DNA of 47,091 bases from Anaerolineales bacterium (lineage in GTDB: Bacteria; Chloroflexota; Anaerolineae; Anaerolineales; E44-bin32): assembly GCA_004376895.1 (NCBI GenBank), contig SOIH01000128.1, positions 1 to 47,091 on the forward strand, in the 5' to 3' direction. Under the pieces are notes generated by a model. It had not been told where the DNA came from, ran no database searches, and saw only the letters and a program-made list of their open reading frames with translations. Shown one piece after another: positions 35,963 through 43,266 of the stretch (the first letter of the stretch is position 1; each line of letters opens with the position of its first letter). The position numbers and the translations under genes were made by a program.

Positions 35963-36307
35963 TCAGAATAGTCCCCAGTCGCCGCCGGTCCCATCCTCCA
36001 TCATCGATGGTTCCCACATTTCCATGCCGAGCTCAACCATCGCCTCGATGCCCATCGCTTCGATGGCTTTACTGCGAGTCATTTCGATCAATGCTGGTGC
36101 GTAGGGGCAGAAGGGCGTCGTCAAGATCATTTTCAGTTGGACGCTCTCGTCATCGATCGACACATCTCGAATTAGGCCCAGTTCGATAATATTGAGTCCG
36201 AGCTCAGGGTCCATCACTTCGCGCAGCCGATCTCGAAGCGTTTTGGCTCCTTCAGGATGGGTTGAATCCGCTTCCCATATTGTCGATGGGGGTGTTTCTT
36301 CACTCAT
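35963..36307 (-). CDS. DUF59/MIP18 family metal-sulfur cluster assembly protein (SufT-like)
   Basis: Proteins of this family help mature iron-sulfur proteins. The DUF59 core is LRDRLREVMDPELGLNIIELGLIRDVSI and MILTTPFCPYAPALIEMTR with its conserved Cys. The ATG at 36307 (MSEETPPSTIW) overlaps the stop of the SufR-like gene by eight bases; a GTG at 36319 would add four residues. About 20 residues precede the core. Co-transcription with the regulator and divergence from the suf operon support a role in the same pathway. Confidence 0.9.
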   Translation of the reverse strand: MSEETPPSTIWEADSTHPEGAKTLRDRLREVMDPELGLNIIELGLIRDVSIDDESVQLKMILTTPFCPYAPALIEMTRSKAIEAMGIEAMVELGMEMWEPSMMEDGTGGDWGLF

Positions 36308-36932
36308 GTTCTTTTTCACTCATTAACTGGACAGAGAAGGCACAATGAGCATCACCATCCAACATGCTTTGTACCTGCTCGACCGGTAAGGATAACGCCT
36401 TGGCGATGAAGGTTTGATCGATCATGCAGACCTCGGGGTGTTTCTGTCCAATTGCAAAATAGGGGCAGCTAAATGCACGGATCACGACGATATCTTCGCT
36501 CCGCTCCCACTCCGCAGTGAAACCCTCTTCGTTAAGTAGTTCAAGCAGACGGACCAGGCGCTGTGTCAATGGAAGCCCCTCGAGCTGGCTGGCATAATCC
36601 TCTGCCATCGCATCGGCGATATTCGTAAGCACACCTTCGTAGTAAATAAGGGGCAGCGATTCTTTCATCTGGTCGAGAAGCCGATTGGTAAGCCGGAGGT
36701 AGCGGGTGGGGAAGAGTTCGTGAGCCTCTTCTGTCAATGAAAACAATTGGTGTGGTCGACCGACGCCGTGTTTCACTTCCTCTATGCACAGCAGGCCATC
36801 AACCTGCAGTTTTGTCAGGTGGTGGCGCACGGAAACAGGGGATATGCCCGCCGCTTGAGCCAGTTCCTTCACTGTGCAACTGCTGCGGGCACGTAGAGTC
36901 TGCAGTATTGTTTCGCGCGTTTGGGAAGCCAT
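36300..36932 (-). CDS. sufR: SufR-like iron-sulfur transcriptional repressor
   Basis: The 210-residue protein has an amino-terminal winged helix (TRETILQTLRARSSCTVKELAQAAGISPVSVRHHLTKLQVDGLL, residues 5-48). A carboxyl-terminal domain bears three cysteines, Cys156 (SCPYF), Cys169 (EVCMID) and Cys197 (DAHCAFS), in the pattern that binds an iron-sulfur cluster in SufR. SufR represses suf genes when clusters are plentiful. It is divergent from sufC, and both promoters lie within one symmetric control region. Its own -10 element ends seven bases before the ATG, so its message should be leaderless. Confidence 0.92.
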   Translation of the reverse strand: MASQTRETILQTLRARSSCTVKELAQAAGISPVSVRHHLTKLQVDGLLCIEEVKHGVGRPHQLFSLTEEAHELFPTRYLRLTNRLLDQMKESLPLIYYEGVLTNIADAMAEDYASQLEGLPLTQRLVRLLELLNEEGFTAEWERSEDIVVIRAFSCPYFAIGQKHPEVCMIDQTFIAKALSLPVEQVQSMLDGDAHCAFSVQLMSEKEHE

Positions 36933-36939
36933 TTTCCGC

Positions 36940-36969
36940 AGTATAGCACGTCCTGCCAGCGGATGTCAA
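36940..36969 (-). promoter_or_regulatory. sufR promoter (leaderless)
   Basis: On the minus strand TTGACA (36969-36964), an 18-base spacer and TATACT (36945-36940) precede the sufR ATG at 36932 with only seven bases between. A transcript starting at the usual distance would begin at or next to the ATG. Confidence 0.75.
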
Positions 36970-37065
36970 TATTTCAGATATTTATGATTATTATTTGGGC
37001 GGATTACCTAAAATAGGTGATTAACGGATGGAATATATTAGATATTTATCACAAATATTGACATC
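36962..37065. promoter_or_regulatory. Symmetric SufR operator region
   Basis: GATGTCAATATTT (36962-36974) is the exact inverse of AAATATTGACATC (37053-37065); each copy overlaps the -35 hexamer of one divergent promoter. Between them a direct repeat AGATATTTAT occurs at 36976-36985 and 37040-37049. These are likely binding sites for the SufR-like protein. Confidence 0.65.
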
Positions 37066-37087
37066 TAGAAACGGTGCGTGCTATAAT
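37058..37087 (+). promoter_or_regulatory. suf operon promoter
   Basis: TTGACA (37058-37063), an 18-base spacer and TATAAT (37082-37087) give a near-consensus promoter, with a leader of about 48 bases before sufC. Its geometry is the mirror of the sufR promoter. Confidence 0.85.
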
Positions 37088-37141
37088 CCCTTGGTGTCCA
37101 AGCGCTATAGAGGTCGTGGAAAAGAGGCCGGAGGAAGTCTA

Positions 37142-37921
37142 ATGACGGATATATTGGAAGTAAAAGACCTGCATACTTCCATCGATGGACAGGAGATCCT
37201 TAAGGGCGTGAACCTTATCGTCCGCGAGGGGGAGATCCATGCTTTGATGGGCCCAAATGGAACAGGCAAATCGACGCTAGCGAACGTGTTGATGGGTCAC
37301 CCGGCATATGAGGTGACAAAGGGTCAGATTCTCTTCAAGGGTGAGAACCTGACAGAGATGGCTACGGATGAGCGGGCGCGGATGGGACTGTTCCTCGCCT
37401 TCCAATATCCCGTAGCCATACCTGGGGTTTCCGTCGCCAATTTCCTGCGCCAGGCGATTAACGCTCACCGCAAAGCCCGGGACCCAGAATATAAAGGTAT
37501 CCCGATCCCTGAATTCCGTAAGCTCTTGAAGGAGAAAATGGACTTGCTCCAGATGGCGCATGAATTCGCGGGTCGCTACCTGAACGACGGGTTCTCCGGC
37601 GGCGAGAAGAAGCGCGCCGAGATTCTGCAATTAGCGACGCTGGAACCCTCGATCGCAATTCTTGATGAGACGGATTCTGGCCTCGATATCGACGCTCTGC
37701 GGATTGTGGCGAATGGCGTAAATACACTCGCTGGCCCCGATCTGGGCGTCCTGATTATCACCCACTATCAACGTATTCTGAATTACATCAAACCCGACAA
37801 AGTGCACATTATGCTCGATGGTCAGATCGTTGAGTCTGGCGGAGCAGATCTAGCGCAGCACTTGGAAGAGCAAGGCTACGACTGGGTTCGTGAAAAGCAT
37901 AATGGGAAGGTAGAGGTGTAG
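37142..37921 (+). CDS. sufC: Fe-S cluster assembly ATPase SufC
   Basis: SufC is the ABC-type ATPase of the SufBCD scaffold. From the ATG at 37142 ([20 protein letters not shown]) it is 259 residues. Walker A is GPNGTGKST, the signature region is [13 protein letters not shown] and Walker [16 protein letters not shown]; the last stretch is diagnostic of SufC. GGAGGAAG lies just upstream, and the longer frame to 37028 crosses the promoter and is not used. It is the first gene of the operon, followed 15 bases later by sufB. Confidence 0.96.
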
Positions 37922-37936: not shown

Positions 37937-39349
37937 ATGGCTTCATCAGGGGATCTCAAGAATCTCCAGGATATTGATCAATATAAGTACGGATTTAGCG
38001 ATCCCGATGTCTCGGTCTTTAAAACCCGCAAAGGTTTGGATCGTGAAGTTGTGGAGCAGATCTCGGCAATGAAGGGCGAACCGAAGTGGATGCTCGAGTA
38101 CCGCTTGAAGGCGTTCGAGCATTTCTTGGAACGGCCAATGCCAACCTGGGGCGGCGATGTCGGCGGTCTTGACCTGGATAATATTTACTACTACGTCAAA
38201 CCGGCGGAGATGGAAGGGCGCACCTGGGATGATGTTCCTGATTCGATCAAGCAGACCTTCGATAAACTTGGTATCCCAGAGGCGGAGCAAAAGTTCCTCT
38301 CTGGCGTCGGTGCGCAGTACGAATCGGAAATGGTGTATCACAGCATCCTGGAGCACCTCGAAGAACAAGGCGTAATATTCCTCAGCATAGAAGAAGGCCT
38401 GCGGCAGCACCCAGATCTATTCCGTGAATATTTCGGAACGGTTATCCCCTATACCGACAATAAGTTCGCCGCGTTGAACGGTGCGGTATGGTCGGGAGGG
38501 TCTTTTGTCTACGTCCCGCCCGGGGTGAAAGTGGAGCTCCCGCTTCAAGCATATTTCCGCCTGAATATCGCCAACATCGGTCAATTTGAACGCACGATGA
38601 TAATCGTCGACGAAGGTGCGGATGTTCACTATGTGGAGGGCTGTACGGCGCCGACCTACACGACGGATTCCTTACACAGCGGTGTGATCGAGATCATCGT
38701 CAAACGCGGTGCCCGCAGCCGCTACACAACGATTCAGAATTGGTCGAACAACGTTTACAACCTGGTCACCCAGCGGGCGATGGTCTTTGAAGATGCATCC
38801 CATGACTGGGTGGATGCCAACATCGGAAGCAAACTTACGATGAAATACCCATCCTGCTACTTGATGGGGAAGGGCGCACGCGGCGGGATCCTTTCCATGG
38901 CTTTCGCCACAGATGGGCAGCATCAGGATACAGGCGGCAAAATGATCCATGTCGCACCTTATACGACCAGTAAAATTACCGCTAAGTCGATAAGCCAGGG
39001 CAGCGGTCGGTCATCCTATCGTGGTTTGTTGAAAGTTCATGATGGTGCGGTCGGATCGAAGTCGAACGTTGTTTGCGATGCCTTACTCCTGGATCCGCAA
39101 TCGCGCTCGGACACTTACCCCTATATCGAGATCGACGAGGATGATGTCAGCATCGGGCATGAAGCCTCGGTGAGCAAAGTCGGGGAGCAGCAGCTTTATT
39201 ACTTAATGAGCCGTGGATTGAGCGGGGAAGAGGCGATCACAATGGTCGTCTCTGGTTTCATCGAACCACTGGTTAAAGAGCTTCCGATGGAGTATGCCGT
39301 GGAGATGAACCGCCTGATCCAGCTTCAGATGGAAGGCTCGATCGGGTAA
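37937..39349 (+). CDS. sufB: Fe-S cluster assembly protein SufB
   Basis: SufB forms the scaffold with SufC and SufD on which clusters are built. The 470-residue length is typical. Diagnostic stretches include [11 protein letters not shown]-like [16 protein letters not shown] near residue 50, [14 protein letters not shown], the beta-helix [17 protein letters not shown], and [21 protein letters not shown] with the conserved Cys. The ending ([23 protein letters not shown]) matches the family. GGGAGG precedes the ATG. Confidence 0.97.
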
Positions 39350-39408
39350 GAGCGGTCTCCGGTCCATGTCATCCTAATCATAGATTTCAAGATGAGGTTG
39401 TACAGAGC

Positions 39409-40758
39409 ATGAGTTCCCGAACTGTTAGCCGGCGTAAACGTGTAGTACGAAAGCAGGAAGCGCCGGAATTCAGCTTCACACGTGAAGATGTCGAGGGTAT
39501 CTCTCAAGCTCTTGGCGAGTCTGATACGCTTAAAACACATCGGATGGCAGCATGGGAGAAATTTGAATCTATACCGATGCCATCGACGAGTGATGAGGCA
39601 TGGCGACGGACGGACATTCGCGGCCTCGATGTTGATCGGATCAAAATGCAGGCGAGTGCGAAAACGCCTGTTGGCCCAGAATTGCGCCAGCCACTTGTCG
39701 CCGAGTCTCATGGCGCGCTGTTAGTCCTGCGACCGGGACACACTCCAGAACTTCGAGCGGAAGACGACCTACAAGAACAGGGAGTGGTGTTCACAGATTG
39801 GGCTACTGCTGTGCGGGAACACGCAGAGATCATCGACCGTTATATGGATACAGTCGTTCCGGCTGAAGACGGCAAGTTCGCCGCGCTCGCTGCCGCGATG
39901 AGTCAGGAAGGTGTGCTGCTCTATGTCCCTGCTGGTGTTCAGCTCCAACAGCCGCTGCACTCGATTTTCTGGGCGCCGGGCACCGAAGCGGCGTTTTTCC
40001 ATCGGGTGCTCATCGTTCTTGAGCGTGGTGCGTCGGCAATGTTCTTCCACGAAACCGCTTCACCGACGGAAAATGAAGGCCAGACGGTTCACGCCGGGAT
40101 TGTAGAAATCTCCGTAGCGGAGGAGGCATCACTGAAGTTCGTTGAAGTGCAAAATCTTGGCGGGCATGTTTGGAACTTCACGCATGAACGAGCGAAGGTC
40201 GCGCGTGAAGGCCGGTTGGACTGGATTTTCGGTGCGGTTGGGAGTCAGCTGACGAAGACTTTTTCCGATTTGGACTTGACGGGGCAGGGGGCGGAGGGGC
40301 GTATCTCCGGATTCTACTTCGCCAGCGAACGGCAGCATTTCGATCATGATACGCAGCAGAATCACCTGGCGCCGAACACAATGAGCGATCTGCTTTACAA
40401 GGGCGCACTGGTCGATCAGAGCCGTTCTGTTTGGCAGGGAATGATCTATGTTGCACCTGAGGCGCAAAAGACGGATGGTTTTCAGGCAAACCGCAACCTG
40501 ATATTAAGCAAGAAAGCGCGCGCCGATTCGATTCCCGGTTTGGAAATCCTGGCGGATGACGTACGCTGCACCCACGGCGCCACGGTGGGTCAATTAGAAG
40601 ACCTGCCGATTTATTATTTGATGACGCGTGGTTTTCCGCGCGAGGAGGCTGAGCGAATGATGATCGACGGCTTCTTCGCACCCATTATGGAGCGCATCCC
40701 CTTCGACGGCATGCGAGAGCGTTTTCGGGGGATGATCGAAGCGAAACTTGGCAATTAA
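39409..40758 (+). CDS. sufD: Fe-S cluster assembly protein SufD
   Basis: SufD partners SufB in the SufBC2D scaffold. The 449-residue protein has a divergent amino-terminal helical part with a very basic opening (SSRTVSRRKRVVRKQ). The beta-helix core follows, then the conserved end DVRCTHGATVGQLEDLPIYYLMTRGFPREEAERMMIDGF with the His of the CTHGAT motif. It lies 59 bases after sufB. The operon order C-B-D is that of Gram-positive-type suf loci, although there S and U follow D directly. Confidence 0.95.
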   Translation: MSSRTVSRRKRVVRKQEAPEFSFTREDVEGISQALGESDTLKTHRMAAWEKFESIPMPSTSDEAWRRTDIRGLDVDRIKMQASAKTPVGPELRQPLVAESHGALLVLRPGHTPELRAEDDLQEQGVVFTDWATAVREHAEIIDRYMDTVVPAEDGKFAALAAAMSQEGVLLYVPAGVQLQQPLHSIFWAPGTEAAFFHRVLIVLERGASAMFFHETASPTENEGQTVHAGIVEISVAEEASLKFVEVQNLGGHVWNFTHERAKVAREGRLDWIFGAVGSQLTKTFSDLDLTGQGAEGRISGFYFASERQHFDHDTQQNHLAPNTMSDLLYKGALVDQSRSVWQGMIYVAPEAQKTDGFQANRNLILSKKARADSIPGLEILADDVRCTHGATVGQLEDLPIYYLMTRGFPREEAERMMIDGFFAPIMERIPFDGMRERFRGMIEAKLGN

Positions 40759-40818
40759 AGGCGGACTGCCATACAATAATAAACTGGTCCGTCTGAGAGA
40801 AAAAGCGAGAGATAGTAC

Positions 40819-41115
40819 ATGGCAAGAAAGATTAATGGCAGTGCGACAATTAACAGGATAGATAAACATCTTCACGCGGTTGGGGAGGTCGTTGAAGTTT
40901 ACTGCGACCATAATAGGGATGGCCGCCGTGTGCGTGACTGGCTGCAAGGTGTCGTCGTGCAAGTGGACGAGAAAATGGTTGCGATCCAGTTCACTGAAGA
41001 CGTGTATCTGACCGACGGTTGGATGGTCCCCGATCGAGTCCTCTGGACGCAGCACAGCAGCGAATCCATCCGTCAGGCAAAACGAAAACGCAAACGTGCT
41101 AAGCGCAAATCCTGA
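40819..41115 (+). CDS. Unrecognised small basic protein inside the suf operon (orf98)
   Basis: I do not recognise this 98-residue protein. Residues 15-75 look beta-rich, with alternating hydrophobics (VGEVVEVYCD, WLQGVVVQVDEKMVAIQF, WMVPDRVLW), as in a small SH3- or Tudor-like barrel. The end is a strongly basic tail (RQAKRKRKRAKRKS) that could bind nucleic acid. The opening also has two or three basic positions. It lies 60 bases after sufD and 30 before sufS, in the same direction with its own ribosome site, so it is co-transcribed with the suf genes. Function in cluster assembly is possible only by context. Confidence 0.8.
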   Translation: MARKINGSATINRIDKHLHAVGEVVEVYCDHNRDGRRVRDWLQGVVVQVDEKMVAIQFTEDVYLTDGWMVPDRVLWTQHSSESIRQAKRKRKRAKRKS

Positions 41116-41145
41116 CAGGCATTCCAAAATCTAGGTGAGGGTTTA

Positions 41146-42393
41146 ATGGGATTATCCTTCGAATCAACCACGCTTGACATCCCGGCGATACGTCGGGATT
41201 TTCCAATTCTTGAACGCGAGACGGAACCGGGAGTAAAGCTTGTTTATCTAGACAACGCGGCGACATCTCAGAAGCCCGTGCAAGTAATCGAGGCGATGGA
41301 TTTATATTATCGGCAGATGAATGCAAATATCCACCGCGGCATCCACTGTCTGGCGGAGGAAGCTACGGTCGCCTACGAAGACGGCCGCAAGAAGATCGCC
41401 TCCTTTATCGGCGCGGAGAGCTGGCGGGAGATTGTCTTTACACGCAATACGACAGAGTCACTCAACTTGCTGGCGTACAGTTGGGGCAGGGCAAATCTGA
41501 AAGCGGGTGATCGTATCCTGCTAACGGAGATGGAACATCACTCGAACATCGTGCCATGGCAAATGCTGGCGAGCGAGGTGGGCGTGACGCTCGATTTCGT
41601 CACATTAACCGACCAGGGGATGCTGAACCAGGAATCGTATGCAACTCTGCTCGAACGCGAACCGAAATTAGTCTCCTTCACCCAGATGTCCAACATGCTG
41701 GGAACGATCAACCCGGTCACCGAGATGACCGAGCAGGCGCATCGTGCAGGTGCAGTTGTGATCATAGATGCAGCGCAGTCTGTGCCGCACATGCCAGTCG
41801 ATGTGCAGGAGTTAGGTGCGGATTTCATGGTGTTCTCAGCGCATAAGATGCTGGGTCCAACAGGGATCGGCATCCTTTATGGGCGCAAAGAATTGCTGCA
41901 GGAGATGCCGCCGTTTCTCGGTGGTGGGGATATGATCAAGCGAGTGCAGCTTGGCGGCTTCACGATGAATGATCTGCCTTACAAATTCGAAGCTGGCACA
42001 CCCGCTATCGCCGAGGGGATCGGTTTTGGAGAGGCTGTAGACTACCTGGCGAACTTGGGAATGGAGGTAGTACATCAATACGAGCAGGCGTTGACAGCGT
42101 ACGCACTCGAACGTCTCGAAGAAGTTCCAGGTATTCAAGTATATGGTCCTGAGGCGCAAGATAAGGGTGGTGTGCTCTCCTTCACCTACGACGGCATCCA
42201 CACGCATGACGTCGCACACATCCTGGATTCCTTCGGGATCGCGATCCGCGCCGGTCATCACTGTGCCCAACCGGCTCATCAACATTTCGACATCGATGCT
42301 ACATCGCGCGCCTCTTTTTATATCTACAATGTGAAAGAAGAAGTTGACCATTTGATCGAGGGTCTTTACAAGGTGAAAGAGATCTTCGGCTAG
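41146..42393 (+). CDS. sufS: Cysteine desulfurase SufS
   Basis: SufS takes sulfur from cysteine with pyridoxal phosphate and passes it to a carrier. The 415-residue length is typical of the group II desulfurases. YLDNAATSQKP opens the fold, the PLP lysine is in FSAHKMLGPTGIG, and the active Cys is in RAGHHCAQP near residue 372. The AGGTGAGGG ribosome site precedes the ATG. The next gene but one downstream shows the scaffold/acceptor SufU, its usual partner. Confidence 0.96.
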   Translation: MGLSFESTTLDIPAIRRDFPILERETEPGVKLVYLDNAATSQKPVQVIEAMDLYYRQMNANIHRGIHCLAEEATVAYEDGRKKIASFIGAESWREIVFTRNTTESLNLLAYSWGRANLKAGDRILLTEMEHHSNIVPWQMLASEVGVTLDFVTLTDQGMLNQESYATLLEREPKLVSFTQMSNMLGTINPVTEMTEQAHRAGAVVIIDAAQSVPHMPVDVQELGADFMVFSAHKMLGPTGIGILYGRKELLQEMPPFLGGGDMIKRVQLGGFTMNDLPYKFEAGTPAIAEGIGFGEAVDYLANLGMEVVHQYEQALTAYALERLEEVPGIQVYGPEAQDKGGVLSFTYDGIHTHDVAHILDSFGIAIRAGHHCAQPAHQHFDIDATSRASFYIYNVKEEVDHLIEGLYKVKEIFG

Positions 42394-42402
42394 AGGAAAA
42401 GG

Positions 42403-42433
42403 GGTCCGACGTCATTTCTTTTTTTCACGGACC
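42403..42433 (+). other. Hairpin between sufS and sufU
   Basis: GGTCCG (42403-42408) pairs with CGGACC (42428-42433) around a loop containing a run of seven T. The T-run is in the loop, so it is not a standard terminator; it could modulate or process the sufS-sufU message. Confidence 0.4.
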
Positions 42434-42475
42434 TAGGGTTTCACCAAAACCTATTTGGAGCGGGCAAGACAAATA

Positions 42476-42871
42476 ATGGATGATTTCTATCGAGAACTGA
42501 TCATAGACCGTTATAAAAACCCACAAATGCGGGGTGAACTGGACCCGCATGATTATTCGTACGAGGACGACAATCCCTTGTGCGGGGATGAAATTCGCAT
42601 CGACCTGCGGGTGGATGGTGATAACCACATTACCGAAGCGGCATTTACGGGAAAGGGGTGTGCGATTTCCCTGGCATCCGCTGATTTGCTCGTCGAATCA
42701 ATCATCGGCAAGACTCTCGATGAGATTAAAACGCTCTCGAAAGATGACGTCATCGAAATGCTGGGGATCGAGTTGGGACCCGTGCGGTTGAAGTGTGCGT
42801 TGCTTTCCTTGAAGGTTCTCAAAGCCGGGATTTATGGTTTGGATGAGCTAGAAGAGGAACTAATCATCTAG
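42476..42871 (+). CDS. sufU: SufU/IscU family sulfur acceptor or scaffold
   Basis: The protein accepts sulfur from SufS. From the ATG at 42476 it is 131 residues; a TTG at 42455 could add seven. The three ligand cysteines are Cys36 (PLCGDEI), Cys62 (GKGCAIS) and Cys107 (RLKCALL), with Asp38 also conserved. Spacing of the second and third Cys is 45 residues, as in IscU, so the insertion of about 18-20 residues that marks SufU is missing. A Lys rather than the IscU His precedes the last Cys, as in SufU. Genomic context with SufS favours the SufU role. Confidence 0.92.
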   Translation: MDDFYRELIIDRYKNPQMRGELDPHDYSYEDDNPLCGDEIRIDLRVDGDNHITEAAFTGKGCAISLASADLLVESIIGKTLDEIKTLSKDDVIEMLGIELGPVRLKCALLSLKVLKAGIYGLDELEEELII

Positions 42872-42915
42872 GGATAGTCGGTTTAATAAAAAGCTGTGTC
42901 TTCTCCGAGGGGTGG

Positions 42916-43266
42916 ATGTACAATTACAAGACATATAAAGAAGAAGATGTGGAATTCGTCTCAGTAGCCTCGGAAGATGAGGTTGGGAATGGAGAACGGA
43001 TCCTGCTCGAGATCGATGGGCAGGGGATCGCCCTGTTCAACATCGCCGGGGAATTCTTTGCCATCGCCGACGTCTGTTCGCATGATGATGGTCCCGTGGC
43101 CGAGGGGGAGCTCGAGGCGTATGAGATTATCTGCCCGCGGCATGGAGCTCATTTTGATTTGCGAACGGGGAAGGCGCTGACGCTTCCCGCGGTGGTTGAT
43201 ATCCCCGCGTACCCGGTGAGGGTCGCGGGTGGTGAGGTTTTAATCGGGCTGCCGGTGGAAGGGTAG
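42916..43266 (+). CDS. Rieske [2Fe-2S] ferredoxin-like protein
   Basis: The 116-residue protein is a single Rieske domain with cluster ligands Cys54 and His56 (CSHDDGP) and Cys73 and His76 (CPRHGAHFD). It has no signal peptide or membrane anchor, so it should be a cytoplasmic electron carrier. The same kind of Rieske gene is often the last gene of suf operons in Gram-positive-like bacteria and in Chloroflexi. GAGGGGTGG precedes the ATG, and the gap from sufU is 44 bases. A hairpin terminator follows. Confidence 0.93.
   Translation: MYNYKTYKEEDVEFVSVASEDEVGNGERILLEIDGQGIALFNIAGEFFAIADVCSHDDGPVAEGELEAYEIICPRHGAHFDLRTGKALTLPAVVDIPAYPVRVAGGEVLIGLPVEG

Follow-up and report, generated by a model that had tools for sequence, protein, structure and literature searches.

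We show herein that a 34-bp dyad, present twice between a sufR-like gene and a suf operon in an Anaerolineales genome, recurs in relatives and stays with sufR and the suf genes even where these lie apart. The dyads are very probably operators of the adjacent SufR-like Fe-S repressor on a bidirectional promoter, where they would serve to occlude the -35 boxes of both suf and sufR. It also appears reasonably likely, from the sequences compared, that the SufR of Anaerolineales has its own operator class, a 34-bp two-way switch with a -35 box in each end, which was repeatedly duplicated and pulled apart, leaving independent copies far from each other and, in certain lineages, also in front of superoxide dismutase, A-type carrier and DtxR-type genes.

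The DNA analysed (the window, 47,091 nucleotides) belongs to a draft genome of 2.96 Mb. Among named genomes, MAGs of Anaerolineales (Chloroflexota) are closest to it, and SufR identity reaches 94%. The sufR gene (minus strand) and sufC (plus strand) diverge from an A/T-rich gap of 209 bp. The features of this locus are as follows.

35963..36319, minus strand: SufT-like (DUF59/FeS_assembly_P) gene, overlapping the end of sufR
36303..36932, minus strand: sufR-like gene, 210 aa (SufR_cyano model, 4.4e-25, below the curated cut-off)
36940..36945, minus strand: sufR -10 box TATACT with TGC extension, 100% conserved in five close genomes
36964..36969, minus strand: sufR -35 box TTGACA, at the outer end of operator 1
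36965..36998, centre 36981.5: predicted operator 1, 34-bp dyad GTCAATATTTCAGATATTTATGATTATTATTTGG (R1 match 36965-36995, E 7.1e-6; matrix score 28.0)
37029..37062, centre 37045.5: predicted operator 2, 34-bp dyad TGGAATATATTAGATATTTATCACAAATATTGAC (R1 match 37032-37062, E 1.9e-7; matrix score 31.2)
37058..37063, plus strand: suf operon -35 box TTGACA, at the outer end of operator 2
37082..37087, plus strand: suf operon -10 box TATAAT with TGC extension, 100% conserved in five close genomes
37130..37136, plus strand: GGAGGAA, Shine-Dalgarno sequence of sufC (leadered message), read from the sequence
37142..37921, plus strand: sufC, first gene of the suf operon (TIGR01978, 3.4e-108, above the cut-off)
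37937..43266, plus strand: remainder of the putative suf operon (sufB, sufD, a 98-aa ORF, sufS, sufU and a Rieske-type ferredoxin gene)

The SufT-like gene is presumably cotranscribed with sufR. While sufS, sufU and the ferredoxin gene were checked against models, sufB and sufD were named by sequence and position only. The 98-aa ORF between sufD and sufS (window 40819-41115) had no Pfam match, and a tRNA was the sole Rfam match in the window.

Both promoters are near consensus. The outward-facing TTGACA boxes, each followed by an 18-nt spacer, lie where the initial annotation had placed them, as does the 13-bp perfect inverted repeat to which it drew attention (GATGTCAATATTT, 36962-36974; AAATATTGACATC, 37053-37065). 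Extended without gaps, this repeat covers 24 nt with 83% complementarity, and the TGC extensions of the two -10 boxes fall within another perfect inverted repeat of 9 bp (TATAGCACG/CGTGCTATA). Of 3000 dinucleotide-shuffled versions of the 209-bp gap, 3 contained a perfect inverted repeat of at least 13 bp; a chance origin is unlikely, though still possible in A/T-rich DNA of this kind, and conservation weighs more heavily. Both arms precede the predicted transcription starts, and for this reason we rejected the idea that the repeat acts as an attenuator or terminator.

Comparison of the intergenic regions of relatives showed that the unit of repetition is not the 13-bp arm, which had been taken for the operator, but a 34-bp dyad, GTCAATATTT-nn-GATAWWTATC-nn-AAATATTGAC, of which each arm is merely the outer end. 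The direct repeat AGATATTTAT, described as an additional element, is indeed present (36976-36985 and 37040-37049) and sits in a longer direct repeat of 28 nt with 79% identity; it is not a separate element, since it forms the centre of each dyad. The two centres are 64 bp apart. With a weight matrix made without the window's genus, the dyads scored 31.2 and 28.0, versus 2.7 for the next non-overlapping site in the 47-kb window. Among five close genomes, identical columns made up 84, 94, 100 and 100% of the two dyads and two -10 boxes, versus 39% of the DNA between the dyads, and the promoter-distal half of the dyad was conserved as well. The region-wide mirror symmetry is a by-product of operator duplication, each copy having retained its outer -35 box, and the comparative evidence supports the earlier proposal of two sites, one for each promoter.

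In most Anaerolineales genomes sufR and sufC are divergent, and nearly all of these gaps contain the same 34-bp dyad. The inverted-repeat element, whose absence from relatives with the same gene pair had been named as evidence against the original reading, is kept in those relatives. Most of them have a single dyad in the gap, each of its ends containing a -35 box, and the distance between the two -35 boxes is then 23-27 bp (24 bp in 32 loci and 23, 26 or 27 bp in 14, n=46). At 19 two-operator loci, the window not counted, 68-528 bp separate the boxes; no gap between 27 and 68 bp was seen among these 46 single and 19 two-operator loci. Where both sites of a two-operator locus are recognisable, there are two dyads, each with a -35 box only at its outer end. 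The doubled form occurs in the window's genus and in about a dozen other sampled lineages.

The dyad also persists where the genes are separated. At 27 named loci with sufR away from sufC, one dyad lies upstream of sufR, and all 11 genomes in which both the remote sufR and sufC were located have a second dyad 81-132 bp upstream of sufC, one of the 11 being weak (E 0.52). Similarly, where genes intervene between sufR and sufC (1.3-3.5 kb; L127, L135, L150, L178, L196 and L197), a dyad is present at both promoters, the one exception being G046, with a dyad at sufC only. This retention at both promoters after separation of the genes points to an operator for a trans-acting factor. When mapped onto a 103-protein SufR tree, the single, double and split states require at least 22 changes, versus 40 for shuffled labels, a count that is approximate in that half of the inner branches are weakly supported; the starred branches by themselves force several changes of each state. 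As the single form predominates in the deepest families, duplication followed by separation appears to be the simpler direction of change on the tree as rooted. Single, doubled and separated operators may form a natural record of one shared control site becoming two independent ones. At two loci of one class-level family (L244 in G090 and L245 in G202), the place of sufR opposite sufC is taken by a SufT-like (DUF59) gene, and the gap still contains a weak dyad.

Genome-wide scans relied on R1, a profile of the dyad built from sequence alone. In the window's genome, the two window sites were the sole matches at E<=1. Across a class-wide sample of 150 genomes, 23 had a match at E<=0.05, and in all 23 the best one lay at sufR, sufC or a HesB/IscA-type carrier gene (the last in two genomes). 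The initial annotation had suggested searching for the motif upstream of other Fe-S genes; such sites exist at A-type carrier genes in some relatives, and the window's genome has only its own two. Among 61 order-level genomes, a dyad (E<=0.05) was found in 43 of those with a SufR ortholog and not in the other 9, and was found in 0 of 9 genomes lacking the ortholog, figures that are uncorrected for kinship and include five SufR-less genomes also without a detected sufC. Four genomes have sufC and no SufR ortholog; three of them have nothing dyad-like upstream of sufC, and the fourth, G047, has a doubtful site (score 17.1) there. The correspondence has other exceptions: G090 has a weak dyad at sufC though no SufR match at E<=1e-25, and in G009, G011, G008 and G019 SufR is present and the dyads are weak or absent. 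No dyad was found with SufR-like proteins outside the class, and no SufR relatives were found on viral contigs. The VRHHL helix motif is common to SufR-like paralogs too, and for that reason co-variation of protein and operator is not clean.

These distributions bear on whether SufR itself is the binder. A Fur-, DtxR-, Rex- or IscR-like iron/redox regulator could bind the dyad and control both promoters, with SufR acting elsewhere, and the TGATA/TATCA half-sites do resemble those of Fur; moreover, in some genomes the dyad also precedes a superoxide dismutase or DtxR-family gene, as in wider iron regulons. However, the GATA-TATC spacing is 2, versus 5 in the 7-1-7 box of Fur, no iron-uptake gene lies beside the off-suf matches examined, a lone sufR still has the dyad at its own promoter, and none of the 9 genomes without a SufR ortholog has it at E<=0.05. 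Another regulator therefore appears unlikely, and SufR remains the favoured candidate.

Less probable still is that the dyad is a mere UP element for two strong promoters, its symmetry arising from their back-to-back arrangement. The dyad is A/T-rich and occupies roughly -36 to -62, where an UP element would be expected, and the strength of the two promoters would suit such a role. Nonetheless, 17 split sites, each serving a single promoter, were still symmetric (0.58 versus 0.40 for shuffled sequences, 0/2000), which an UP element would not need; conservation extends to the promoter-distal half; and the dyad, rather than occurring at many strong promoters, is confined to sufR, suf and a small set of Fe-S or oxidative-stress genes. 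Given its position, promoter strengthening may be a second role of a SufR operator. The two operators might also act only jointly, with SufR holding the DNA in a loop or forming a dimer of dimers over 64 bp, the reading nearest to the joint repression predicted in the initial annotation. This is very hard to credit, even though the window's copies are spaced by about six helical turns and those of many two-operator relatives by 52-74 bp, since a single operator is enough in most relatives, operator spacing reaches 504 bp, genes can intervene, and no fixed helical phase between the operators was established.

The presumed binder, window SufR, matches TIGR02702 (the NCBIfam model of cyanobacterial SufR) over its full length with 88.6 bits (E 4.4e-25), below the curated cut-off of 178.8, which no Chloroflexota genome sampled reaches. 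In keeping with the wider SufR family, its gene is divergent to a suf operon, and it has an N-terminal winged HTH and a C-terminal domain in which three cysteines, C156, C169 and C197, are invariant (alignments of 28 and 31 rows), giving an X12/X27 spacing. A structure model built from 31 relatives (mean pLDDT 83.6) contains the winged HTH, and its domain arrangement is unreliable because the pTM is only 0.59. Foldseek against the PDB returned general winged-HTH matches only, with low whole-length TM-scores, and a sequence search found no solved SufR structure. Residue 189 is a serine in the window protein and in a 94%-identical relative, and a cysteine in over 90% of relatives.

If SufR here acts as it does in cyanobacteria, it would bind each 34-bp dyad as a dimer, presumably with its [4Fe-4S] cluster in place, cover the -35 box and keep RNA polymerase off, shutting both the suf operon and sufR. 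When clusters are scarce or damaged, SufR would release the DNA, and expression of suf and sufR would rise together. With the single shared operator of most relatives one dimer could close both promoters, while the two operators of the window could allow each promoter to be tuned separately.

The 34-bp dyad differs from every described SufR operator that we found. The cyanobacterial operator is CAAC-N6-GTTG, whereas that predicted in Anaerolineales is a longer dyad that incorporates the -35 boxes and that most relatives have only once. Neither CAAC-N6-GTTG nor ACACT-N5-TGTGA, the SufR operator reported for Mycobacterium, occurred in any of 93 sufR-sufC intergenic regions (0/93 for each). IscR and RisR, in whose control of isc/suf an Fe-S regulator likewise feeds back on the assembly machinery, are of the Rrf2 type, unrelated to SufR, and recognize other motifs (PMC9973013 for RisR). 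The closest parallel is Synechocystis, where sufR (sll0088) and sufBCDS form a divergent pair of repressor and operon with two sites in the gap (PMC6034842, PMC13421787, PMC8593673), the affinity being high at the suf site and low at the sufR site (PMC6034842), and where the oxidised holo-protein represses both suf and sufR (PMC13421787, PMC8593673). The divergent layout, two sites (here predicted), autoregulation together with suf repression, and C-terminal Fe-S cysteines would all be shared with the window. Its circuit thus appears to work in a SufR-like manner and, judged by the TIGR02702 cut-off and CAAC-N6-GTTG, the two features tested, lies outside the cyanobacterial equivalog.

In M. 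tuberculosis Rv1460, cysteines 203, 216 and 244, whose spacing equals that of 156, 169 and 197 in window SufR, are needed for function (PMC6034842). Unlike here, sufR of actinobacteria (Rv1460, S. avermitilis and C. glutamicum) heads the suf operon and there is no divergent promoter; in S. avermitilis the CAAC-N6-GTTG site overlaps the -10 box (PMC11995493). We found no published description of a SufR operator in Chloroflexota; RegPrecise 3.0 has a small Chloroflexi collection, the text of its paper does not mention SufR, and an unpublished database entry is possible.

The sufR ATG (36932) lies only 7 nt past the -10 box, and sufR is therefore probably translated from a leaderless message, as the initial annotation had predicted. 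The same distance is 6-10 nt in nearly all members of the window's family with a recognisable promoter and in over half of all listed loci, and 16-87 nt in several other families. A leaderless message has also been reported for Rv1460 (PMC6034842).

Together, the data point to a conserved SufR-type circuit across a large, mostly uncultured Chloroflexota order, with an operator that is new and testable; Levilinea saccharolytica is a cultured member, so the circuit is open to experiment.

Away from suf, four order-level genomes have a dyad immediately before an Fe/Mn superoxide dismutase gene, which in two of them is followed by a ferredoxin gene: L240 (G203) at ~2475-2508, L192 (G052) at ~2590-2623, L231 (G062) at ~2029-2062 and L232 (G064) at ~2057-2090. 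Such sites were found in some members of the order only, families f11 and f14 among them, and are absent from the window's genome. A DtxR/MntR-family metalloregulator gene is preceded by another dyad at a distance of ~20 bp, L242 (G166) at ~2435-2468. The superoxide dismutase and DtxR-family sites are single-genome predictions of modest significance, and the former possibly belong to a wider SufR regulon. In two class members of one family, a dyad precedes HesB/IscA A-type carrier genes (L241 in G194, ~2486-2519; L243 in G130, ~2459-2492). Matches inside ORFs (L193, L194 and L199) were discarded as chance. Two matches upstream of NDH-2 contain the Rex-like TTGTGAAATTTATCACTA and were also set aside; this Rex-operator-like sequence is identical before the type II NADH dehydrogenase genes of two genomes (L227, ~1896-1929; L230, ~2014-2047).

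SufR paralogs with 26-35% identity lie beside HesB/IscA genes at L061, L062 and L066-L069. The dyad was not found at the HesB/IscA genes near these paralogs, where the promoters have another mirrored element, TTTGTCAA ... TTTGACAAA, suggestive of a parallel design with a different operator. In G001, of the window's genus, a second SufR-like gene (L064, at 1615) has no HesB gene beside it, and an operator-like GTCAATATAATTGATATTAATG...TTTGACG lies at its promoter.
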